Part shown: piece by piece, positions 1,008 to 20,561 of the stretch
Position numbering within the stretch: position 1 is the first letter of the stretch
Layout of the letters: each line of letters opens with the position of its first letter
Virus record (IMG/VR): IMGVR_UViG_3300027852_000611
Coordinates: 1-22,065 of that record
Strand: one strand, 5' to 3'
DNA: 22,065 nt
Origin: a virus
Position numbers and translations under genes: made by a program
The notes under the pieces: model-generated
What the model saw: the letters and a program-made list of their open reading frames with translations, nothing else
Told to the model about the DNA's origin: nothing
Database searches by the model: none

Positions 1008-4000
1008 TTACCGTTTCTCCAACAATTCTCGAACTACATCAGGGTTATTTTGGATAGAGTTTATCACAACTCTCTCCCCCTCTGATGAATCCATGTAGTC
1101 TTTTATTACTCCACTGTCCCAGGCGTTAATGACTCTTAGGCCAGGCTGTTGTGAAGGCTGTACAGAGTCTGAAATTTTAGAAGCTATGTCGTTAATGCCG
1201 TTGGAACTTTTCATCCCCACTACACCGCCAGAAGAGAAACCTCTCAATGCTTGCTGGTTTGCTCTGTGAATAGTGCCAGCGCCCAGTTGTTTTACCAGTT
1301 TGGCATTTAGTATAGCCTCTCCGTTAGAGACTGCTATAGGTCTGATAGCTCTACCGCCTTCCATGACAACACCAGGCACAGAATCCGAAGTCCCGGTACC
1401 TGGCCCCTTAATAATGCCCCCAGAGCTGAAACTGGTTTGTACGTCTCCGTTACTGACAACTCCACCGGTTTTGGCCTTGGAGAAGAGGCCTAACAGACCG
1501 GATGCCGGTCCGTTCTTTCCACCAAAAGAGCCTATCCCAGACAGTATAGCTTCCTGCAGAGCTGCTTTAGCGATCTGTTTAGAGAGGTCGGCAAAAAACC
1601 TTCTGGCAGAATCCCTCATCTTAGTGAAAGATTCGTCACCTGTAGCAGCCATATCCACCAAACTACCAGACAAAGCCCCTATAGAGTCTGTCAAACCCTG
1701 CGTCATAACGTCCTTCCACTCTACCAACTTATCTTGTGCGTCGGTGAGCTTGGCGTAGGCTAAGTCCAGTATGGTGGGGTCTAAACTATCTAACTGAACC
1801 TGTAAGTTTTCTACTTGGTCCTTCGCACCCCTCAAATCCTTCTGCAACCCCACGTCTGTAGGCTTCAGACCTTGCTGGGTCTGTATCTCATCTTTAGTAG
1901 CTTCTGCGGCGGTTAGTTGACCCTCCAATGAAGATCTCTGTTCCTCCTCCGTTAAAGCCCCACCTAACGACAGTCGGTACTTCTGCTCCCCAGAAAGTTC
2001 TGAAGCCTTTACCTCATCTTCCTTAAGCTTTAAAAGCCTTCTGTTGTAGCCAGCTATCTGTTCGTCTTGAGTGTTTTTATACTTCTGGGCCTCTGCACCT
2101 TTCTCTGCCTGTTCCGCCTGGATCTTGGCGTAGCCTTCTATCGCACCGTACTCGGCCAGCATGCCTTCAAGGGCTTCCGTAGTGTCTGAACTTAAAAGAG
2201 CCTGCTCTTTGGTGTTGTCGGCAAGAAGGTTGTTAAGGACTAGTACGTCTTCTTCATAGTCCTCTGGCTTCTCCAACTCCAAGCCCTTCTTCACTAGTTC
2301 CAAGTTCTTCTTACGAATCTCTAAAAGCCTCTCAGCTACCTCCTGCAACTCTTTCCTAGTCTCGTCTTCCTGAGTACCTTCTAAGACGCCTTGCTTGTCT
2401 CGTAACTTAACCAGCTTACGGTCAAACTTGTCCTTACGCTTTGTATCTCCTATATCCTTGGCAAACCCTCTCACCTCTTCAGTGGCTGAAATTTCCCTGG
2501 TAACCTGCCCACGCTGTAACTTCTGCTTCTGCTGAAGTAGTCCTCCTTCTTCCAGCACGGAAGGGAACTTGCCCTGTTCTTTGGCTTTTTTAATATCCCT
2601 TGATAGGCGGTTAATCTCCGTCTCTACGTCCGCTTCAGGGATGTATGTAAACCCTTCAACTTTCCTTTTTTTCTCTGCTGTTGTTTGAGCTTTAGCGGCT
2701 TGGTCACTCTTTATAGCCTTCTGCACATCTTCAAGGAACTTTCTAAACTCCCGAGTAAGTTGAATCCTTCCGTCTTCGTCGGCCTTAGTAAATCTCGCTG
2801 ACTCCTCGGGCACTTGAAGATTTTTTAAATACCTAGAAAGTTGGCCGCCTTCACTGGTTAGCTCAGTGAACTCGGCTATGCCAGTATCTCCTGTCTTCCG
2901 CAACTCTTTGTTGGCCTCGGTTACTGCCGCCTTAGCAATCTCTAAAGCAGCTTCTTGGGCTTGTTGTTGTTGGGCCACGTAAGTTAGGTCTGAAAGATCC
3001 TGCACCCCGCTGGATGGTAGCCTAAACTGCCCAAAGAACCCTTCGCCTCTAGACCTAATACCTGTTTCCCTCTGCTGCAACGTAGCGATAGCTTCCTCTA
3101 TCTCTACCACGTTGCCTTTTTCAGCAGCACTCTCTTTAACGGCAGCTATGTAAGCGGTGAGCTCTTCAAAGGTATCGATGCCCGCAGACTCAAGACGAGT
3201 GACGGTATCTTGGCGCCTTTCTACAACACCTTTTGTAGACTCTGCGTCCCTTTCTAGGGAAGTTACAACTTCCGCTCCTACTTCCCTTAAAGTCTGTAAA
3301 ATTTCCTCAGTAGAAGCATCCACGCCTAATGCGCTGAGGCGTGACGAAAGAGCTTCTACTTTGGCCGCGTCCGCAGGAGAAAGGCCCTCGGCGCCTAGGT
3401 TACGTACCGCGTAATTTACCGCTTCCTCGCGTAACGCTTTGGCCTGCGTATCTGCCCCTGTCCTCGTTGTCGCAATGCCTGACAACTCAGCAGCCCTATT
3501 AGCGTCTGCTTCCCCGGTTCCCAGACCTAGCTGTGATAATACATTTCTAGCTGCTAAAGAGCCTGCTTCCAAACCAGATAAAGACTTGACCAACTCATCC
3601 CTAGCAGCCTGAGTCTGCCCTTCCACCAGGTCGCCCAACACCGCATTTATGTTGTCAGAAAACCCCTCAATAACTTCCTGCAGGCCTTTTAAAGTACCTT
3701 CTGTAGACTCCGCCTTGTCTAGGTCATAGTCTTCTAACGCTTCCTCTATGCCGGCCAACTCTGACTGGCTTTTAGCCAAAAGAGACTGCGCCGCTGATAT
3801 TTTCCCTTCTATACCTTCGCCAAAAAGTTTATTTAGGCCAGGGATGTAGTCTTTGAAAGAGGTTACTAAAGTTGCTGCAGTAACAACTACTGAAAGTAAC
3901 TTGCCAAGAGGGTGCAGGCTGAACCCGGCCTTAAAAACCCCTACCAAACCACCTAACTTAGTGGTGGAGGCTGTAATACCTTTAACCCCTCCTGCATCTT

Positions 4001-6824
4001 TCCCAAAACCTTTACCTAAAAACAGCGCTAGAGTGGACCCTAGTGCGATAATAGCGTTAACAACTTCCCCGGCCAGCTTGCCACCAGAAGCCTCCGCCCC
4101 TGTAGTAGCTGCGGAAGTTACTCCGGCAGCCCCTAGCGCCGCAGCGCCTTTCTTCAGGAACCCTCCCCTGGTCTTAACCGCCGCAGTAGCTCCGGCAGCC
4201 AGCGACGCTATGAAGCCTCCTGATGCGCCGCCCTTTACGTTGCTCTTCTCTAAGCCTTCATCGACTTTCTTTAAAAACTCGGTCAGATAGGTGGTGGCTT
4301 CGGCCAGGGATCCCACCAAGGTACCGGACAACGTATCCGCCAGACCGGTGATAACGGCGCCTAAGTTCTGCGCGGAACCGCGCAAAGACTCCAACTGAGT
4401 TTTAGACCCTTCCGCCGAGGCGCCTGGATCTCCGATTCTGGCCAGTGAGTCATTTAACTGGTCTACGTTTTTAGTAAGAACTTTGAAAACGTTTTCAGCC
4501 CTGGTGTCGATGACACGAGAAAAAAGCTTGGAGGCAGAGCCAGAAGCACCTAGCCTTTTAAACTCTTCGATTACTGACTGTAGAGGGTTCTCTGACTGCC
4601 TGAACTGGAAAAACTTGTCCTGCACCTGCTCTGAGCTGAGGTTTTCCCCGAGCTCCGCGTAGCGCTGAACCAAAACATCCACAGTCTTTTTGTCTGGGCT
4701 CATCAACTCCAGTACAGTCTGTCTTAGGCCAGTGGAAACTGTGGAGGCTTTGATACCGGCGTTCCTAAGAACCGTTACAGCAGAAAGAAACTGCTCTGAG
4801 CTTATGTTATACGCCTTAGAGACCTGTAAACCTCTACTAAGGATAGTGCTAAGATCCTCCGCTGTCAGCTTAGAGATATTTACCGCTTTGGTGAGTTGGT
4901 CAGCAATACTTCCGTCAGACAGGTCTGTATAAACGTTCCGCATGGTACTAATAAGGTCAGCGGATACTTGTAGGGTGCTGTTGGTGGCGGCGGCAAATTG
5001 CGCCACAGCTTTAAGTGCTGTGTCTTGCTCTTCCGGAGATACCCCGGCCTGAGCCAAAACCTGTGCCGATTGCGCTATCTCATCGATACCAAACTTAGTA
5101 GTGACTGCAACGCTTTTAATGGTAGCTTCGATCTTCGACATATCCTTGTCAGTGGCACGAGACACCGCTTGGATAGACTTTAGGCTAGCATCCAGACCTA
5201 CGAGCCCGCCCGTTAGTCCTTTCACTGCGCCCAACACTTGGTATAGAGCACCATACCCAATAGCATAACGAAAGAACTGCCTTAGTGTCCGGCCCGCAAA
5301 CTCCGAAACCTTGCCGAAATTAGTCATCCCACCACTAACAGCCTTGAGACGTTCTTTAGACTTACCTAGCTGGGTATTAACTCTAACTAGGTCTTTCTCT
5401 ACGCCTTCAAGTTTTAACGCACTACCTGGAGTAGCTCCTCTTTGAGAAAGTAATACCTGTCTTTGCGCCTCCAAGAACTCTTTCTGTCGGCTCAGGTAAG
5501 CGTTAGCTGACACTTGCTTTTCTGGGGCTACTTTGTAAAAGTCCCCACCTGCCCGGTCTAATGCACGTCCACCAGATGCAGCCTCGGCCACCTTGGCCTG
5601 ATTAACTCTAAGGCGAGATAAAGTCTGGGCAGTCTTCTCAGTTTGAATTCTGAGCTCTTTCTGCCTCTCAATGCTGTTCTTGTGTCGTGCTTTATTAGCC
5701 TTATCCCGCCGTAGTGTGGCAGCGTTAACCTGAGTGTCCAGCTTAGCTTGTCTAGTCTTCTCACTACCTAGTTGCTGCAGACCTCTGGCCTGCTGTCCGA
5801 GCCCTACGTTGAGATCCCTAAGTCCTGTTAGTTCCTTACTGAAAGACTTACCAGTAACTTTCTCAAGCTCTTGATAACTTTTCTTGAGAGCGGTAACTGT
5901 CGCAATTCTTTCTTTTATTTTGGCGCGGTCGGTATCTATCCGGGTTTGGGCACCGGGCTTTCGTAACTCCCTGCGCTTAGCAGAAGGTGAGGTGATCTTG
6001 TCCAGCTCTTCAAAGGCGGTGTTGAGGGGGGCTTTGGCTTTGCGGGTCTGCGCGTAGAGGTCGGTCTCTCGGTCTATACCTCTCTGACGGTCCAGTTCCC
6101 GCTTCTTCTGCGCTCTGACATCTCTGCCAAACTCGTCGGCAGTTTGTAGTCGCTTTTGTAGTTTTCTCTTATCTTTGGCGTCGGTAAACGCTATGCCTCC
6201 TACGGAAGTGTCCAAGAAGGTCTTATCGTCAGCACTTAAAATCTCTCTGGAACCTAGAGACTTAGTTATCCCCCCTTGGCGCTTTAGAGCCTCCTTAGTA
6301 AACGCTTGAAAGTTAGCTATGTCCTCTTGCACCCCTTTTTGGGCTAATAACTTAACTCTCTTTTTGGGCGTAGCTTTAGCGTACCTATCTAAAAAGGACT
6401 CACCTCGTTGTATAGAGTCGGCATTGGCTATGACGGACTTATTCAGCTCTTCGCCAGCCGTTTTATAGACATTCGCTAGTTGTAAAAACTGACTCCTAGT
6501 GGTCTTGGCAAAACCCTTTAACTCCTTAGGGAAGTCCTCTCCAGAAGGTACAAGGCTTTGCAGTAGGTCCGTCTTCTGCACCTTCTCACCTTTGCGCCTA
6601 CCTCTCTGAACAGTCTCTTGCTTTAGTACCTTGTCCGCAGAGTTTAATATTGTACGGTACGTCTTAGCTAGTTCGGCACTAGCCTTCTGCACCTCTGGTG
6701 TAGGTACTTTGGAGAGTTGCGTAATAGAGTCTTTAATCGTCTTACGCAACTTGTTCGCAGACACTTTAGTCAGCTTTGGGTTAAGTTCTAAACCTATCTC
6801 AGCTTGTACAACTTCCTTAGCCAT
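1008..6824 (-). CDS. Tail tape measure protein
   Basis: At 1,938 residues this is the longest gene in the window, and it lies directly after the tail assembly chaperone, where tape measures sit. The first 500 residues or so are Lys/Arg/Glu-rich and helical. A TP901-type tape measure core spans about residues 515-790: a hydrophobic start near QFFRYAIGYG, then alternating helices such as AQSAQVLAQAGVS and VTVLRNAGIKAST. A Gly/Ala-rich hydrophobic stretch follows at about 840-990, as is typical of the part thought to enter the membrane during DNA ejection. A long charged coiled-coil region comes next. Near residue 1745, RRFFADLSKQIAKAALQEAI matches lambda-type tape measure C-termini, and a Gly-rich tail contains SSGGIIKGPGTGTSDSVPG. 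At roughly 0.15 nm per residue the tail would be near 290 nm. The start ATG is 2 bases after the upstream stop, which suggests translational coupling. Confidence 0.95.
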   Translation of the reverse strand: MAKEVVQAEIGLELNPKLTKVSANKLRKTIKDSITQLSKVPTPEVQKASAELAKTYRTILNSADKVLKQETVQRGRRKGEKVQKTDLLQSLVPSGEDFPKELKGFAKTTRSQFLQLANVYKTAGEELNKSVIANADSIQRGESFLDRYAKATPKKRVKLLAQKGVQEDIANFQAFTKEALKRQGGITKSLGSREILSADDKTFLDTSVGGIAFTDAKDKRKLQKRLQTADEFGRDVRAQKKRELDRQRGIDRETDLYAQTRKAKAPLNTAFEELDKITSPSAKRRELRKPGAQTRIDTDRAKIKERIATVTALKKSYQELEKVTGKSFSKELTGLRDLNVGLGQQARGLQQLGSEKTRQAKLDTQVNAATLRRDKANKARHKNSIERQKELRIQTEKTAQTLSRLRVNQAKVAEAASGGRALDRAGGDFYKVAPEKQVSANAYLSRQKEFLEAQRQVLLSQRGATPGSALKLEGVEKDLVRVNTQLGKSKERLKAVSGGMTNFGKVSEFAGRTLRQFFRYAIGYGALYQVLGAVKGLTGGLVGLDASLKSIQAVSRATDKDMSKIEATIKSVAVTTKFGIDEIAQSAQVLAQAGVSPEEQDTALKAVAQFAAATNSTLQVSADLISTMRNVYTDLSDGSIADQLTKAVNISKLTAEDLSTILSRGLQVSKAYNISSEQFLSAVTVLRNAGIKASTVSTGLRQTVLELMSPDKKTVDVLVQRYAELGENLSSEQVQDKFFQFRQSENPLQSVIEEFKRLGASGSASKLFSRVIDTRAENVFKVLTKNVDQLNDSLARIGDPGASAEGSKTQLESLRGSAQNLGAVITGLADTLSGTLVGSLAEATTYLTEFLKKVDEGLEKSNVKGGASGGFIASLAAGATAAVKTRGGFLKKGAAALGAAGVTSAATTGAEASGGKLAGEVVNAIIALGSTLALFLGKGFGKDAGGVKGITASTTKLGGLVGVFKAGFSLHPLGKLLSVVVTAATLVTSFKDYIPGLNKLFGEGIEGKISAAQSLLAKSQSELAGIEEALEDYDLDKAESTEGTLKGLQEVIEGFSDNINAVLGDLVEGQTQAARDELVKSLSGLEAGSLAARNVLSQLGLGTGEADANRAAELSGIATTRTGADTQAKALREEAVNYAVRNLGAEGLSPADAAKVEALSSRLSALGVDASTEEILQTLREVGAEVVTSLERDAESTKGVVERRQDTVTRLESAGIDTFEELTAYIAAVKESAAEKGNVVEIEEAIATLQQRETGIRSRGEGFFGQFRLPSSGVQDLSDLTYVAQQQQAQEAALEIAKAAVTEANKELRKTGDTGIAEFTELTSEGGQLSRYLKNLQVPEESARFTKADEDGRIQLTREFRKFLEDVQKAIKSDQAAKAQTTAEKKRKVEGFTYIPEADVETEINRLSRDIKKAKEQGKFPSVLEEGGLLQQKQKLQRGQVTREISATEEVRGFAKDIGDTKRKDKFDRKLVKLRDKQGVLEGTQEDETRKELQEVAERLLEIRKKNLELVKKGLELEKPEDYEEDVLVLNNLLADNTKEQALLSSDTTEALEGMLAEYGAIEGYAKIQAEQAEKGAEAQKYKNTQDEQIAGYNRRLLKLKEDEVKASELSGEQKYRLSLGGALTEEEQRSSLEGQLTAAEATKDEIQTQQGLKPTDVGLQKDLRGAKDQVENLQVQLDSLDPTILDLAYAKLTDAQDKLVEWKDVMTQGLTDSIGALSGSLVDMAATGDESFTKMRDSARRFFADLSKQIAKAALQEAILSGIGSFGGKNGPASGLLGLFSKAKTGGVVSNGDVQTSFSSGGIIKGPGTGTSDSVPGVVMEGGRAIRPIAVSNGEAILNAKLVKQLGAGTIHRANQQALRGFSSGGVVGMKSSNGINDIASKISDSVQPSQQPGLRVINAWDSGVIKDYMDSSEGERVVINSIQNNPDVVRELLEKR

Positions 6825-6826
6825 TT

Positions 6827-7396
6827 CTAAAACCCCATACTTTTAAGTGACGCCTTTCCCTGCGCCGTTGATATATCGTGGACCTTCGCGCTTTCGCTAG
6901 ACCCTCCTGACATCTCTCCACCAAACCCGTAAACACAGGCTTCCAACTGTACTCTGCTAAGCCTGGAGGTGTGGGTGTGAGACGCTTTAATAATTTCGAG
7001 GGCGATGCCTCGGTCTACTTCTGTGTAGAGGTACTTCGCTTTGTGGTAATCAAACCCGGTACTGATAAGGGCACTGACGCTAGTGTCCAACTCTGATACG
7101 TAACTGATGTAGTCAGAGTAAAAGCCTTTACTGGCAGGTTGAGTATTAACGCCCTCCGACGGTTTTTCAAACTCAGCTTTAAGGGCGAGTACCCTTTCTG
7201 AGAAATACTTTATATGTTCGTTAGTAATTTCTTCTATACCACAGCCAAGTAGTAAGGATTTGTGATAGCAGGCAGCAATAAGAGACTCCTCTTCAGAAGG
7301 TAGGTTATCAAACTCCTTGAACAGGATTTCAAAAGCCAGAAGAGGGATAGGAAACGGTAGTTCCGTTTCCTTTAAAAATATAGAGGGTTCAAACAA
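6827..7396 (-). CDS. Tail assembly chaperone (gpG-like), TTG start
   Basis: A 189-residue acidic, helical protein between the tail tube and tape measure genes, the position of lambda G/T-type tail assembly chaperones, which load the tape measure and recruit tube subunits. The assignment is mainly positional. The start must be TTG: an in-frame TAG lies 13 bases upstream and there is no ATG until near the C-terminus. A GGAG SD lies 7 bases before the TTG. Both the SD and the TTG fall in the right arm of a perfect 17-bp inverted repeat, so translation may be structurally controlled. I see no canonical G-to-GT slippery site near the 3' end and no separate T frame, so this is probably a single-product chaperone. 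The stop TAG is 2 bases from the tape measure ATG. Confidence 0.75.
   Translation of the reverse strand: MFEPSIFLKETELPFPIPLLAFEILFKEFDNLPSEEESLIAACYHKSLLLGCGIEEITNEHIKYFSERVLALKAEFEKPSEGVNTQPASKGFYSDYISYVSELDTSVSALISTGFDYHKAKYLYTEVDRGIALEIIKASHTHTSRLSRVQLEACVYGFGGEMSGGSSESAKVHDISTAQGKASLKSMGF
7350..7370 (-). repeat. Small hairpin inside the first codons of the chaperone gene
   Basis: GGAAACGG (7350-7357) and CCGTTTCC (7363-7370) form an 8-bp perfect inverted repeat with a 5-base loop, about 9 codons into the chaperone gene. It is the second hairpin in the 5' part of this message, after the 17-bp repeat over the start codon. Confidence 0.5.
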
Positions 7397-7440
7397 GGCT
7401 AAACTCCACTAGTAAATACCTGAGAGTTTAGCCTTGTTTG
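7390..7440 (-). promoter_or_regulatory. Long inverted repeat covering the SD and TTG start of the chaperone gene
   Basis: Bases 7390-7406 (CAAACAAGGCTAAACTC on the plus strand) and 7424-7440 are a perfect 17-bp inverted repeat with a 17-base loop. In the minus-strand mRNA the distal arm contains most of the GGAG SD and the TTG start codon. The hairpin would therefore block initiation unless opened, for instance by ribosomes finishing the tail tube gene 22 bases upstream. There is no U-run, so it is not a classical terminator. Confidence 0.7.
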
Positions 7441-7461
7441 GGGTGTATAGCTAGGTTTGTA

Positions 7462-8280
7462 CTACTGCTCCCCACCTCCTATGTACATACCTACTGGGTG
7501 GTTGGGTATAATATCAGCCAAGTGTTCAAGATCTTGGCCAGCACCGTACTCAGACGCTGAAGGCTGTAAAGCATCCAACTCCAACGCGAAACTTGCAAAG
7601 TCAGTAGCGTTAGTGGCGTAATCCATACTGCCTGCTATAGAAGTTTTCCAGAAATTAAACCCTATTGGGCGGCCTGTAGATTGATCTACCTGTATCAGGC
7701 TGGCAGAAAAATAGTTGGTCTGCGTAATGCCGCCTACGGCAATGGCTTTGGCGTGAAAGATGTGGACAGTAGCTGTAGTACCGGTAACAGCAACGGCTAG
7801 GCCGGGGGCAATTGTCAAAGTATCCACAGCCACACTGACTACGCGGGAATGTTGTACTGTATCAGGTTTGCCGTCTTCATAGATAACCACCAAGTCGTCA
7901 GTGGCAAAGCTAGTGCCTTCTCCTGTAGTAACATCAACAGTAGTAGCTGCAACAACTTCGTCAGAAACCACTAGGGATGCCACGTCGGCAGCCGCTGCTG
8001 GAATACCTTCCCCCAGCATAACGCTTAGGTTACGGCGCGAACCTTCTCTCAAGGTTCCTGTAACAGAGCTTTCTTGGGAAATGATAGCACTGGTGATAGT
8101 CTTCTGCGGAAACCCTCCAAGCAGCTTAACAGACTCTTGAGAGGCTGTTACAGTAACTTCATCAACCACTCCTACGGAGTGTGTTTGCAGTAGTTGTCCT
8201 GCTGAACTCAAAGCGCCTAAACGCAGTTCCGCAGTACCTATAGGGTATTTATTAGTAACTGGACTTCCTAAAGTTGCCAT
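7462..8280 (-). CDS. Major tail tube protein
   Basis: A 272-residue beta-rich, Thr/Val/Ala-rich protein directly upstream of the chaperone and tape measure genes, the standard place of the siphovirus tail tube (lambda V-like) subunit that polymerises around the tape measure. Residues about 110-175 (VDVTTGEGTSFATDDLVVIYEDG and following) look like an inserted small beta domain of the kind that decorates tube subunits. The start is ATG with a GAGG SD 8 bases upstream. The gene has its own likely promoter (8324-8351) and a perfect palindrome in its leader (8293-8306), which would suit a high-copy structural protein. The assignment rests on position and composition rather than a diagnostic motif. 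Confidence 0.8.
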   Translation of the reverse strand: MATLGSPVTNKYPIGTAELRLGALSSAGQLLQTHSVGVVDEVTVTASQESVKLLGGFPQKTITSAIISQESSVTGTLREGSRRNLSVMLGEGIPAAAADVASLVVSDEVVAATTVDVTTGEGTSFATDDLVVIYEDGKPDTVQHSRVVSVAVDTLTIAPGLAVAVTGTTATVHIFHAKAIAVGGITQTNYFSASLIQVDQSTGRPIGFNFWKTSIAGSMDYATNATDFASFALELDALQPSASEYGAGQDLEHLADIIPNHPVGMYIGGGEQ

Positions 8281-8292
8281 GTTTGTTTCCTC

Positions 8293-8306
8293 TTGAAACG
8301 TTTCAA
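8293..8306 (-). promoter_or_regulatory. Perfect 14-bp palindrome in the tail tube leader
   Basis: TTGAAACGTTTCAA is fully palindromic and lies 13 bases before the tail tube ATG, just upstream of the SD and downstream of the putative promoter. Its placement and TTTGA/TCAAA ends recall the palindromes before the right-hand genes, but the centre is longer. It could be an operator or a weak leader hairpin. Confidence 0.5.
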
Positions 8307-8323
8307 ATTATATGCGCCATAGG

Positions 8324-8351
8324 AGTATAGCACTCGTTAACAAGCCTTCAA
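8324..8351 (-). promoter_or_regulatory. Putative sigma70-type promoter for the tail tube gene
   Basis: On the minus strand, TTGAAG (8351-8346) is followed after 16 bases by an extended -10, TGC-TATACT (TATACT at 8329-8324). A second -10-like TATAAT lies at 8312-8307. The site occupies the 73-base gap between the upstream gene and the tail tube gene. Confidence 0.55.
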
Positions 8352-8353
8352 AA

Positions 8354-9106
8354 CTAGAAAGCCTTCTTCAACTTATTCCGTCTACGAAACCCGTAAGCCC
8401 TACTAACAGGGTCAAATAAGGGCCTCGGTTCCTGTCTCCTTGAATGGGTCCTGGTGCCATTCTCAAAAAATGCCAACTTCTTTAAGGGTCCTGTCAAGTG
8501 TAGCGCAGACCCTGTTGAGTCCGGAGCTAAGTACCTGCCCATAAGAAACTCAGACAAAGCGGCGTTACTTGTAGGGGCAGAGTATCTGTAGGAGTAGTTC
8601 ACTACTAAAGAAACATTAGTCCCTCTAACTCTTGGTTTCTTACTTATTCTTTTGCTTCTGGTAATGCCTTTGGTGGTTCCTTGGGTATCTACTGCGGCTT
8701 GAAGCAGCTTATTGGTCTGCCCGGTGTACCTCCTAAAGCTCTTAAACTGCTTCCTCTTGTAATATCTATCCTCAAGAGGGTCCCAAGGCTTGTGTAGCAC
8801 AACCCCTAAGCCTCGTATCGGTGTGTCATCTACATAACGCCCGCCATCTCTGGCTTCATTAACCAGTGTCTTCAACCCTACTCTACGAAACGACTGATAA
8901 TCCTTTACTAGTAGAGGTTCTACAGTCTTAGTCCAGTAATAGTCAGAGACCTTAGCGCTCAATACCTTACCGTCAGAGGAGTTTGTCAAGGTATCACCTT
9001 TCTTACTTTTCCCAAACAGGGCTTTGACAATAGACTCCTCTGACAAGCGTATTGTTATGTTTTGAGCCTTGGAGCTCTTAGACCTAGCCACTGGCTGCTT
9101 TACCAT
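8354..9106 (-). CDS. Tail completion / neck protein, putative
   Basis: A strongly basic protein of 250 residues with runs such as YYKRKQFKSFRRY, KRISKKPRVR and FRRRNKLKK. It lies between the connector genes and the tail tube, where HK97 gp10-like or lambda Z-like completion proteins are found. I recognise no family motif, so the role is positional. I take the ATG at 9106, which overlaps the previous gene by 23 bases. A longer frame from TTG at 9157 exists, but it has no usable SD and a 74-base overlap. The ATG also lacks a clear SD, so initiation is probably coupled to translation of the upstream gene. Confidence 0.6.
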   Translation of the reverse strand: MVKQPVARSKSSKAQNITIRLSEESIVKALFGKSKKGDTLTNSSDGKVLSAKVSDYYWTKTVEPLLVKDYQSFRRVGLKTLVNEARDGGRYVDDTPIRGLGVVLHKPWDPLEDRYYKRKQFKSFRRYTGQTNKLLQAAVDTQGTTKGITRSKRISKKPRVRGTNVSLVVNYSYRYSAPTSNAALSEFLMGRYLAPDSTGSALHLTGPLKKLAFFENGTRTHSRRQEPRPLFDPVSRAYGFRRRNKLKKAF

Positions 9107-18419: not shown

Positions 18420-18422
18420 CCT

Positions 18423-18443
18423 CTTATAACTTTTAGTTATAAG
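18423..18443 (+). repeat. Hairpin between the small peptide and the next gene
   Basis: CTTATAAC (18423-18430) and GTTATAAG (18436-18443) form a perfect 8-bp inverted repeat with loop TTTTA. There is no U-run after it. It lies 4 bases before the palindromic leader element. Confidence 0.5.
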
Positions 18444-18447
18444 AAAC

Positions 18448-18461
18448 TTTGACAAGTCAAA
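18448..18461 (+). promoter_or_regulatory. Start-associated palindrome, copy 1
   Basis: TTTGACAAGTCAAA, ending 27 bases before the ATG of the 205-residue gene. The SD region that follows reads CATAGGGAATAAAATT. Confidence 0.75.
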
Positions 18462-18488
18462 CAAAACAAAACCATAGGGAATAAAATT

Positions 18489-19106
18489 ATGAACACTCTA
18501 ATCACAGCATATCAGCTAGCCCAAGCCAGCCTTTCGAAAGCAGCAAAAGCAAAGGCCGCCTCTTACGTCAAAGCTGAGAAGTCCGAACTAAAAGCAGTAG
18601 CAAACACGGCGGAAAAGTTTACAGATTACTTCACAAGCCTAGAACTGCTAAACGCCTCAGCCATGTTAGATAGCTTAAACAGCGTAGAAGGCGTGGAGGA
18701 TAAAAAATTCTACAACAATGTTAAAAAAGCTTTAGAGCGTGGCGCTAACCTGCAGGCCTTGTCCGAAGGGCAGACTATCGGACTAAAAAAAGGCGTGTTC
18801 GTTATCAAGAAAACCGCCAAGAAAAGCGATAGCCCTAAACCTGAAACGGCGACCGAGAAAAACCAGCGTTTAGAGTTAGAGCTAGAAGAACAAAAAGCTC
18901 TTACTGAAAAAGCAAAAGATGATGCTATTAAGTTAGCCACTTTTGAGGGCGCGTTATACGCCTTGAACACTCTATCTGTGGTGGATATGAATTTAAGCGG
19001 CGAAGAAAGTATGAAACTTTTACAGGTAGCCCAACAATTAATACTTAAGTTGGAAAAGAATACGCCTAAACAAGCCGCTAACAAAGCCGCTAACAAAGCC
19101 GCCTAG
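18489..19106 (+). CDS. Ala/Lys-rich helical protein, unknown function
   Basis: A 205-residue, nearly all-helical protein. The N-terminal 40 residues are Ala/Lys-rich (LAQASLSKAAKAKAASYVKAEKSE), a basic linker follows at about 105-120 (KKGVFVIKKTAKKSDSPK), and a charged coiled coil lies at about 122-150 (EKNQRLELELEEQKALTEKAKDD). The end carries a short protein repeat (ANKAANKAA) coded by a 12-bp DNA repeat, GCCGCTAACAAA. I recognise no family. It might bind DNA or act as a structural or adaptor protein, but that is a guess. It starts at ATG with an AGGGA SD after palindrome copy 1. Confidence 0.7.
   Translation: MNTLITAYQLAQASLSKAAKAKAASYVKAEKSELKAVANTAEKFTDYFTSLELLNASAMLDSLNSVEGVEDKKFYNNVKKALERGANLQALSEGQTIGLKKGVFVIKKTAKKSDSPKPETATEKNQRLELELEEQKALTEKAKDDAIKLATFEGALYALNTLSVVDMNLSGEESMKLLQVAQQLILKLEKNTPKQAANKAANKAA
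19073..19102 (+). repeat. 12-bp coding microrepeat
   Basis: GCCGCTAACAAA occurs twice in tandem and is followed by a third partial copy (GCCGC) just before the stop codon. Such repeats can gain or lose units by slippage without a frameshift. Confidence 0.6.
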
Positions 19107-19123
19107 AAAATCATACGGGAAAG

Positions 19124-19137
19124 TTTGACTAATCAAA
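19124..19137 (+). promoter_or_regulatory. Start-associated palindrome, copy 2 (variant centre, long stem)
   Basis: TTTGACTAATCAAA, ending 31 bases before the ATG at 19169. This copy has a variant centre, and its symmetry extends outward. Bases 19114-19128 can pair with 19133-19147 as a 15-bp stem with one G-U pair and loop CTAA. No U-run follows. Confidence 0.7.
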
Positions 19138-19168
19138 CTTTCCTGTAACGCAACATAGGGACCACGCC

Positions 19169-19480
19169 ATGAGCTACGTACAGCAGTTAGAAAGAGCTTG
19201 CCTTGCGTTTAAGGTCACTAAGTATAGCCAAAAATGGTTGTACATTAATGACAATAAACTGCCCGCCTTAGTCATTAACCCTGACAATACTTACGCCGTG
19301 TTAAGTTTCGACCACTTGGGTAGGCTTATAGGCCGGTATTACGACAACGGACAGGAGGACACTTACTATTACCCTACGTTAGCTTGCCCCAGTGTTCTGG
19401 TAGTGCCGGAATTTGTAGATTACGAGCTTCTGTACCTACCGGAAAAAACTTTGACCGGTCAAACTTTCCACAACCTGTAA
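19169..19480 (+). CDS. Hypothetical phage protein (103 aa)
   Basis: A 103-residue, Tyr-rich, strand-rich protein (KWLYINDNKLPALVINPDNTYAVLSFDHLGRLIGRYYDNGQEDTYYY). There is no signal peptide or membrane segment. I do not recognise a family. The last codons (TLTGQTFHN) are written by the next gene's palindromic element, so the C-terminus is shaped by a regulatory sequence. It starts at ATG; the nearest SD-like bases are AGGGA, 10 bases upstream. Confidence 0.65.
   Translation: MSYVQQLERACLAFKVTKYSQKWLYINDNKLPALVINPDNTYAVLSFDHLGRLIGRYYDNGQEDTYYYPTLACPSVLVVPEFVDYELLYLPEKTLTGQTFHNL
19450..19463 (+). promoter_or_regulatory. Start-associated palindrome, copy 3 (inside the 3' end of the upstream gene)
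   Basis: TTTGACCGGTCAAA, fully palindromic including the CCGG centre, ending 26 bases before the ATG at 19490. It lies within the coding sequence of the 103-residue gene and is flanked by GGAAA and TTTCC. Confidence 0.75.
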
Positions 19481-19489
19481 GGGATCAAC

Positions 19490-19795
19490 ATGGACACGAT
19501 TAATTTAACTCCTAAAACTATTGTCATGAACGACGGCACCGTCTACATACCAAGCGGTAGAGTGGCGCGCCTAATTACTCACTGGAGTGATATTAGCGAA
19601 GATGTTTGTTATGCCTGCTATGAAGGCTGTGTAAACGTCCCCTACCCTAAAGAAGGTGTGAGGTACATCACCTCAAAAGTAGTAGCTCAGACCCTTAAAC
19701 GTAGTGACGTTCTAAGCGCTGCTACCGACCACCCCAACGTTATAAGAGGTACTGCTGGTAGAGTTATTTCTGTACCTTCTTTGCAGGCGTGGTGA
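19490..19795 (+). CDS. Conserved phage protein of the 'NLTPH' type (101 aa), unknown function
   Basis: A 101-residue protein that starts INLTPKTIVM and continues with IPSGRVARL, then YITSKVVAQTLKRSDVLSAATDHPNVIR and GRVISVPSLQAW. This order, namely NLTPh near the start, PSG-x-ARL, a Y-I-(V/T)-S block, R-x-DV and a final G-R-(I/V)-x-x-V, matches a widespread small protein family that I recall from many phages and some bacteria; its role is unknown. Two cysteines in CYACYEGC lie in the variable middle. It starts at ATG with a GGGA SD and follows palindrome copy 3. Confidence 0.7.
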   Translation: MDTINLTPKTIVMNDGTVYIPSGRVARLITHWSDISEDVCYACYEGCVNVPYPKEGVRYITSKVVAQTLKRSDVLSAATDHPNVIRGTAGRVISVPSLQAW

Positions 19796-19814
19796 TTGCA
19801 AATTGGGCAAAAAC

Positions 19815-19828
19815 TTTGACAAGTCAAA
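19815..19828 (+). promoter_or_regulatory. Start-associated palindrome, copy 4
   Basis: TTTGACAAGTCAAA, ending 18 bases before the ATG at 19847, between two genes. The AAAACT and CTTT flanks match copies 1 and 3. Confidence 0.75.
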
Positions 19829-19846
19829 CTTTCATAAGGAATCAAA

Positions 19847-20176
19847 ATGAATAATTTAGAGCAGGCAGTATTGAGGCAATCTGGCCTAGGCCTAAAACAG
19901 TTTCGCAAGTGTAAGAAGTTCCCAGGGTTCAGGTCGCAAAAGAGTATCGAGACCTTCTATAAGGAGCACCGAGTGGGGATCTTAGTTTACCTAAAGCAGA
20001 GTACCTACTCAGAAGGCTGTAGTTTAGGCGAGTACCTCTACAGACAGAGAAGTGACTCTGAGATCACCCTAACAGATATAGAAGACGTTTTGCTGGGGAT
20101 TCCCAACCCGTGGCAGGCGTGGATTACAGTGGATATTGTACTGGCTGTGGTGGGGCTTGTTTCTTCGTATATATAA
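19847..20176 (+). CDS. Hypothetical phage protein with a hydrophobic C-terminus (109 aa)
   Basis: A 109-residue protein with a basic, helical N-terminal half (GLKQFRKCKKFPGFRSQKSIETFYKEHR) and a final hydrophobic segment (about 93-109, ITVDIVLAVVGLVSSYI) that could be a tail anchor in the inner membrane. I recognise no family. It starts at ATG with an AAGGA SD and lies after palindrome copy 4. It is followed directly by a strong hairpin terminator, so it is probably the last gene of the first right-hand operon. Confidence 0.65.
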   Translation: MNNLEQAVLRQSGLGLKQFRKCKKFPGFRSQKSIETFYKEHRVGILVYLKQSTYSEGCSLGEYLYRQRSDSEITLTDIEDVLLGIPNPWQAWITVDIVLAVVGLVSSYI

Positions 20177-20193
20177 TTATTTTAGCTTTTTAG

Positions 20194-20232
20194 CTTATAT
20201 GCTGTTGAGGCAACAGCATATAAGTAATTTTT
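20194..20232 (+). terminator. Intrinsic terminator of the first rightward operon
   Basis: CTTATATGCTGTTG (20194-20207) and CAACAGCATATAAG (20211-20224) form a perfect 14-bp stem with loop AGG. TAATTTTTGG follows. It lies 18 bases past the last stop codon. Confidence 0.75.
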
Positions 20233-20275
20233 GGGGTTGTCAAGAGGTAAATAAGGTTTAGGGAGAGGCTTAGGC

Positions 20276-20395
20276 ATGGCGTTAGTGAAAAGTATACACA
20301 ATTACGTGTTTTTGGGCCTTTTTCGTACGTTTTTTAACCAAATAAAAAAAAATAAAAAACTATATATTAGTTTTGCTTTTTTTGTTTCCGGGTAG
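20276..20395 (+). CDS. Possible small basic peptide (39 aa)
   Basis: ATG at 20276 has a GAGG SD 7 bases upstream and opens a 39-codon frame with aromatic and lysine-rich segments (VFLGLFRTFFNQIKKNKK). It lies in an AT-rich gap, where chance frames are common, and its SD is part of an 11-bp repeat (GAGGCTTAGGC) that also occurs at 20571-20581 without a gene. Treat it as a candidate only. Confidence 0.3.
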   Translation: MALVKSIHNYVFLGLFRTFFNQIKKNKKLYISFAFFVSG

Positions 20396-20528
20396 AAATA
20401 GGCCATTTTAACGATTCTGACCTTCTAACGGGTTTTTCGATTAGGGGTCAAACTAATACACGATTTTAATCAGTATTTAGCGTAGTTGTAAGTTATTGAA
20501 AGCTATAGAGAAATAAACACTACTTTCC

Positions 20529-20561
20529 ACCAAAGAAAGTGGTGTAACTTTCTTTGGTTTT
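20529..20561 (+). terminator. Hairpin with U-run, likely intrinsic terminator
   Basis: ACCAAAGAAAGT (20529-20540) and ACTTTCTTTGGT (20547-20558) form a perfect 12-bp stem with loop GGTGTA; TTTA follows. It may end transcription that passes the first terminator, or a short non-coding transcript. Confidence 0.6.

Follow-up and report, generated by a model that had tools for sequence, protein, structure and literature searches.

A long hairpin over the start of a tail assembly chaperone-like gene lies at a probable conserved terminator position in a virus family

In tailed phages the demand for tube protein greatly exceeds that for tape measure protein, and the question raised by this locus is how such a difference might be obtained where the start of the gene behind the major tail (tube) protein gene (MTP) lies inside a long hairpin. 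The window, i.e. the whole stretch of DNA analysed, was a virus record of 22,065 bases with its tail genes on the minus strand (Table 1). The window MTP matched phrog_28493 (unknown function, E 6e-17) and phrog_807 (major tail protein with Ig-like domain, E 4.9e-5). The tape measure ATG was found 2 nt past the stop of the chaperone-like gene. After the UAG stop of MTP (7464-7462), the same frame remained open for 20 codons (7461-7399, minus strand), across the 5' arm of the long hairpin (hairpin 1), and was closed by a UAG 2 nt upstream of the TTG start of the chaperone-like gene.

Table 1. Positions of the genes, hairpins and putative signals considered in the window.
Feature	Positions	Strand	Remarks
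Major tail (tube) protein gene, MTP	7462..8280	-	272 aa; PHROGs matches and relatives
Tail assembly chaperone-like gene	6827..7396	-	189 aa; starts with TTG; name taken from its place between MTP and tape measure
Tape measure protein gene	1008..6824	-	phrog_28, E 1.3e-27
5' arm of hairpin 1	7424..7440	-	CAAACAAGGCTAAACTC
3' arm of hairpin 1	7390..7406	-	GAGTTTAGCCTTGTTTG; contains TTG start, most of SD, T-rich TTGTTT
Loop of hairpin 1	7407..7423	-	17 nt
Shine-Dalgarno-like GGAG	7404..7407	-	7 nt ahead of TTG; read from sequence
Hairpin 2, within chaperone-like gene	7349..7371	-	8-9 bp, loop 5
Extended -10 promoter-like TGCTATACT	8324..8332	-	52 nt upstream of MTP ATG; with TTGAAG at 8346-8351

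A sequence-only reading of this stretch had described a perfect 17-bp inverted repeat over the Shine-Dalgarno (SD) sequence and the TTG start, and the two arms were indeed complementary at 17 of 17 positions. Hairpin 1 was the longest perfect inverted repeat in the window (loops up to 40 nt); in 200 dinucleotide shuffles of the window the longest repeat measured 8-14 bp, mostly 9-10 bp, and 14 bp was reached once. Folded alone it had an energy of -26.9 kcal/mol (z -7.4; 0 of 200 shuffles equally stable), and the 141-nt region around it gave a folding z of -5.6. Nothing in the record pointed to a mobile element or a family of repeats: beyond the two arms of the hairpin there was no further exact copy of the arm, and the 12-base arm core, with 2 mismatches allowed, was present at one extra place, as chance predicts. 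Exact 12-base arm cores 8-30 nt apart were found in no other contig of viral_contigs, in a search from which records very near the window were possibly excluded, and Rfam covariance models gave 0 matches to positions 7000-8500 at E up to 1. Hairpin 1 is represented by a single sequence. Several perfect hairpins were also seen on the right-hand side of the window (18422-20558), among them one of 14 bp with a 3-nt loop (20194-20224) and one of 12 bp with a 6-nt loop (20529-20558).

Relatives were sought with the MTP and the 189-aa protein, singly and as alignments, and related IMG/VR contigs were retrieved, together with one genome contig, from Methylovulum miyakonense (L048); the 189-aa protein alone retrieved no related contigs. 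The window MTP had no match among 50,697 phage records. With the MTP of the nearest relative (L020, 63% MTP identity) as query, 10 phage records were matched at E up to 0.01, including Caulobacter phage Seuss, Achromobacter phage JWF, Acinetobacter phages EAb13 and Mystique, and Pseudoalteromonas phage KB12-38; five of the 10 were examined. The capsid protein matched 31 phage records, with Vibrio and Pseudomonas phages, of which five were examined (SHOU24, K478b, PMBT3, Lana and UAntarctica). A first set of MTP and capsid-only relatives overlapped with a larger set of 51 gaps, which formed 38 clusters at 90% MTP identity (37 without the window); the scan of each gap began 10 nt ahead of the MTP stop and ended 160 nt behind it. 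L079 and L087, where MTP runs off the contig, were left out, and L011, with a chaperone-like gene and no MTP in front of it on its own strand, was not counted. The next gene was not chaperone-like in several loci (e.g. L055, L069, L070, L074, L078 and L081). In L011 (3889-5582) most of the large ORFs nearby were on the other strand from the chaperone-like gene, owing either to a rearrangement or to faulty assembly. The 130 nt downstream of MTP were identical in L048, a bacterial genome contig, and L086, an IMG/VR record, which may link one member of the family to Methylovulum miyakonense as host. Two Vibrio phages, SHOU24 (L005, about 5110-5172) and K478b (L006, about 7345-7483), had an extra long hairpin just upstream of the tape measure gene.

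Hairpins behind MTP were common in these relatives. Of the 37 clusters other than the window, 32 had a canonical terminator-like hairpin in the 170 nt scanned at the MTP stop, each with a positive terminator score (d > 0); the remainder of these loci, window included, gave a background of 28 in 249,588 nt (0.019 per 170 nt). In the first set, 17 of the 18 MTP relatives and 3 of the 5 relatives linked by the capsid protein alone had one (background 0.14 per kb elsewhere; 32 hits in 1,200 shuffled gaps). The clusters with no hit were L067, L076, L077, L078 and L081, and the miss in L067, a stem with TTTTCCCA, was barely under the threshold. A terminator had been annotated behind MTP by the depositors of Seuss and JWF. 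Most relatives had stems of 6-14 bp with T-runs, the terminator-like stem ending approximately 3-74 nt upstream of the next start; the distance from stem end to start was 3 nt in L071, 6 nt in L077, 9 nt in L075 and 10 nt in L083. Gap hairpins with no T-run were seen in L077 (16 bp), L078 (10 bp), PMBT3 (8 bp) and UAntarctica (8 bp). The post-MTP gap is thus probably a conserved terminator position, at which the window carries an atypical hairpin that probably hides the start.

Scored as a terminator, the window hairpin had a suitable stem and position (a core of 11 bp with 5 GC pairs, -15.7 kcal/mol, behind the MTP stop) but not a short loop or a clean T-run: the loop was of 15-17 nt, the tail was TTGTTTGA, and these two features brought d down to -22.9. 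It is unlikely, though worth weighing, that hairpin 1 is a plain intrinsic terminator with an odd loop and tail, its overlap with the start being a by-product of the short gap. Such a terminator would occupy the gap where most clusters have their terminator-like hairpins, its GC-containing stem part is followed by 5 T of 8 in the tail, the hairpin passed a loose terminator scan that 0 of 50 shuffles of the same gap passed, and the hairpins of L071, L075 and L083 also lie near the start in short gaps. However, the negative score stands against 32 of 32 positive scores in the relatives with hits, the loop is long, and the T-run, broken by a G, is itself within the perfect stem.

Both the TTG (7396-7394) and the SD fall within the 3' arm, apart from the first G of the SD, which was also paired, as G-U, in the predicted fold of hairpin 1; SD and start were both paired in the minimum-energy fold, as in hairpins that sequester ribosome-binding sites (RBS), and the predicted unpaired probability of the TTG was 0.00. 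We infer the position of this start from three observations: the TTG was the first start codon following the in-frame stop, no other ATG, GTG or TTG stood ahead of the N-terminal SIF common to the relatives, and it aligned with the ATG of L020 in a pairwise alignment. Opening the stretch from -15 to +12 at the window start was predicted to cost 25.9 kcal/mol, the highest value of 50 loci (3.8-20.0 in the 49 relatives, mean 10.6, sd 4.3; 4.9-11.8 in 13 other genes of the window). These 50 loci include nine near-identical loci and the EAb13/Mystique pair, and exclude L051 (next ORF not found), L076 and the same-gap loci L048, L073, L092 and L094. The start codon was also predicted to be paired, by other sequence, in the near-identical loci L057, L059, L061, L062 and L064 (unpaired probability 0.01; opening 15.7-16.4 kcal/mol), so that hidden starts as such are not unique to the window. 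The stem over the start was not conserved: the longest perfect stem of the gap ended upstream of the start in 48 of 49 relatives, and in the exception, L081, that stem was just 3 bp. The translational occlusion proposed earlier is consequently favoured by the predicted pairing and its cost but not by conservation.

The closest comparisons were L020 and L077. In L020, a canonical terminator ended 21-23 nt upstream of the ATG that aligns with the window TTG; the start codon was predicted to be free (0.99), opening would cost 8.8 kcal/mol, and the SD region was predicted to be mostly paired (0.12 unpaired). The L020 terminator T-run aligned to the loop of hairpin 1, weakly, in a two-sequence alignment of a poorly conserved gap, and the stretch before and over the L020 start matched the window 3' arm at 12 of 17 positions by manual count. 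From this alignment hairpin 1 seems to be a separate structure that occupies this gap and is moved over the start, not a copied L020 terminator. Keeping the gene order and the aligned start with no stem over that start, L020 is the kind of relative that the sequence-only reading had itself named as counter-evidence. In L077 (3816-3858), a 16-bp perfect stem with an 11-nt loop and no T-run was followed by an ATG 6 nt downstream (opening 19.8 kcal/mol); judged by these features, L077 is a second case of a long hairpin replacing the terminator, and the window is not wholly alone in form.

L077 also bears on two further explanations. A recent origin of the perfect repeat through a template-switch mutation, or its introduction by an assembly error, in either case with no selected role, seems improbable. 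The arms are perfect, they were found in a single contig and the exact pattern revealed no second copy; template switching can reportedly give rise to RNA hairpins (PMC8794818). An accident of this kind would nevertheless have left the frame, the start position and the SD spacing intact and the start aligned with that of L020, and a long hairpin with no T-run lies at the same place in L077. It is likewise doubtful, to a marked degree, that hairpin 1 acts mainly as a stabiliser of RNA 3' ends or as a site at which RNase III cleaves between MTP and the genes behind it. The perfect 17-bp stem and the T-run-free gap hairpins of L077, L078, PMBT3 and UAntarctica would suit this role, and detaching the MTP mRNA would likewise lead to unequal expression, but most relatives have the shorter stems with T-runs already described, and typical RNase III substrates are longer than a 17-bp stem.

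Two parts of the earlier proposal concerned ribosomes and a second hairpin. Ribosomes leaving MTP had been thought to have to open hairpin 1; the MTP stop is 21 nt short of the stem and, given the size of a ribosome footprint, a terminating ribosome should not touch it, and this part is not supported. Readthrough of the MTP stop as a way of opening the hairpin was considered and rejected: other loci showed open frames of all lengths, with no family trait (in L077 and L068 the post-MTP frame was open for more than 200 codons, reaching into the next gene). The second hairpin, placed about 20 bases into the gene, does exist, from nucleotide 26 (7370-7363 with 7357-7350, 8 bp; 9 bp with the flanking A-U pair 7371/7349), but it was absent in L020 and unsupported as a conserved part. 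It was one of six window stems of at least 9 bp with loops of 3-8 nt (30 shuffles: mean 0.7, maximum 2), and by folding comparison alone the matching stretch folded at least as strongly in 6 of 23 relatives, via other stems. Hairpin 2 is probably incidental.

The name given to the downstream gene, tail assembly chaperone, agreed with its position between MTP and the tape measure gene, but gene order was the sole source of the label. The window 189-aa protein had no match in Pfam and PHROGs up to E 0.1, and single family members reached a best E of 0.063 against these collections, which is not significant. A fold search with the model of the 189-aa protein (pLDDT 78) gave no match at E of 0.001 or less, the best hit with a named role being the Seuss tape-measure chaperone (E 0.24), and in hhalign the profile of the window family did not match the chaperones of Seuss, JWF, EAb13 and KB12-38 (probability 0.5%). 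The chaperone-like proteins of the window (6827-7396) and ten loci had in common an N-terminal S-x-F and a late YGxGG-like motif. They are possibly an undescribed family.

No -1 frameshift had been seen in this gene by the sequence-only reading, and this held: a strict X XXY YYZ heptamer was absent from approximately the last 160 nt. The -1 frame at the stop was that of the tape measure gene, so there is no separate extension gene. Strict slippery heptamers were present in 3 of 23 relatives of the window gene's kind (L068, L071 and L077) and in 4 of 4 cultured phages examined (TTTTTTC in Seuss and JWF, AAATTTT in EAb13 and TTTTTTT in KB12-38). The window gene thus resembles the -1 frameshifted tail assembly chaperone pair, with ribosomal slippage annotated in Seuss, in lying between MTP and the tape measure gene, but differs from it in being a single product, with neither the strict heptamer nor an extension ORF.

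Upstream of MTP, 11 loci out of 44, one of them the window, had an extended -10 motif and 33 did not; 200 shuffles gave 2.3 on average and 6 at most. L048, L073, L081, L090, L092, L094 and Mystique were outside this count. A general promoter scan of the window showed no excess (17 found vs. 18.0 expected). TGCTATACT would act as a putative promoter, which fits with MTP being its own transcription unit in part of the family.

With a probability of roughly 0.55, hairpin 1 is a lineage-specific replacement of the post-MTP terminator and would lower downstream expression mainly by hiding the start. We infer any effect on transcription or translation from the hairpin itself, its position, the terminator-like hairpins of the relatives and the predicted occlusion. 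The post-MTP gap would be the site used by the family for lowering expression before the chaperone-like and tape measure genes, in most relatives via an intrinsic terminator, and in the window the long hairpin would take the place of this terminator, with its 3' arm over the SD and the start. In RNA reaching beyond MTP, the hairpin would already be folded, or would be folding, when the start emerges, and initiation would be blocked; some weak termination may come from the UUGUUU end of the hairpin, and the MTP mRNA may have its 3' end protected by the stem. Translation of the tape measure gene, with its ATG so close behind the chaperone-like stop, would probably fall along with chaperone-like translation. 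Tube protein would then be made in large amounts, and the chaperone-like and tape measure proteins in small amounts. The earlier suggestion that the hairpin sets this ratio agrees with a drop behind MTP, which the terminators of the family should give, but not with the lack of conservation of the start-covering stem. Against the replacement of a terminator by start hiding, hairpin 1 was seen in one sequence, and a stem that costs 26 kcal/mol to open would leave almost no initiation unless opened, and there is no known opener; the chaperone-like protein might be supplied via weak termination, RNA processing or an opener. More tentatively, the lineage may have swapped a leaky terminator for a translational throttle in which the 3' arm is formed by the RBS and the start, UUG UUU doubling as the T-rich end.

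Hairpins in mRNA that sequester the RBS limit initiation, for instance in gene control in RNA phages. The window likewise pairs SD and start in a stable stem, but this stem is at the terminator site of the family, is not conserved and has no known opener. Intrinsic terminators behind the major tail gene are the other known system: to those annotated in Seuss and JWF can be added the one predicted just after the major tail gene in Cluster O mycobacteriophages, e.g. Corndog (PMC4351075). The window hairpin shares with them the place before the chaperone and tape measure genes, and differs in its 17-bp stem, its 17-nt loop, its broken T-run within the stem, and in covering the next SD and start. 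A hairpin behind a tail gene covering the next start was not described in the literature found by our search, a weak absence, most subscription papers being outside its scope. Compared across its members, the family seems to have a common hairpin site for the drop in expression between tube and tape measure proteins, and in one lineage the device may have shifted from termination to start hiding; the compact gap would then be a simple case of one mode of control turning into another.
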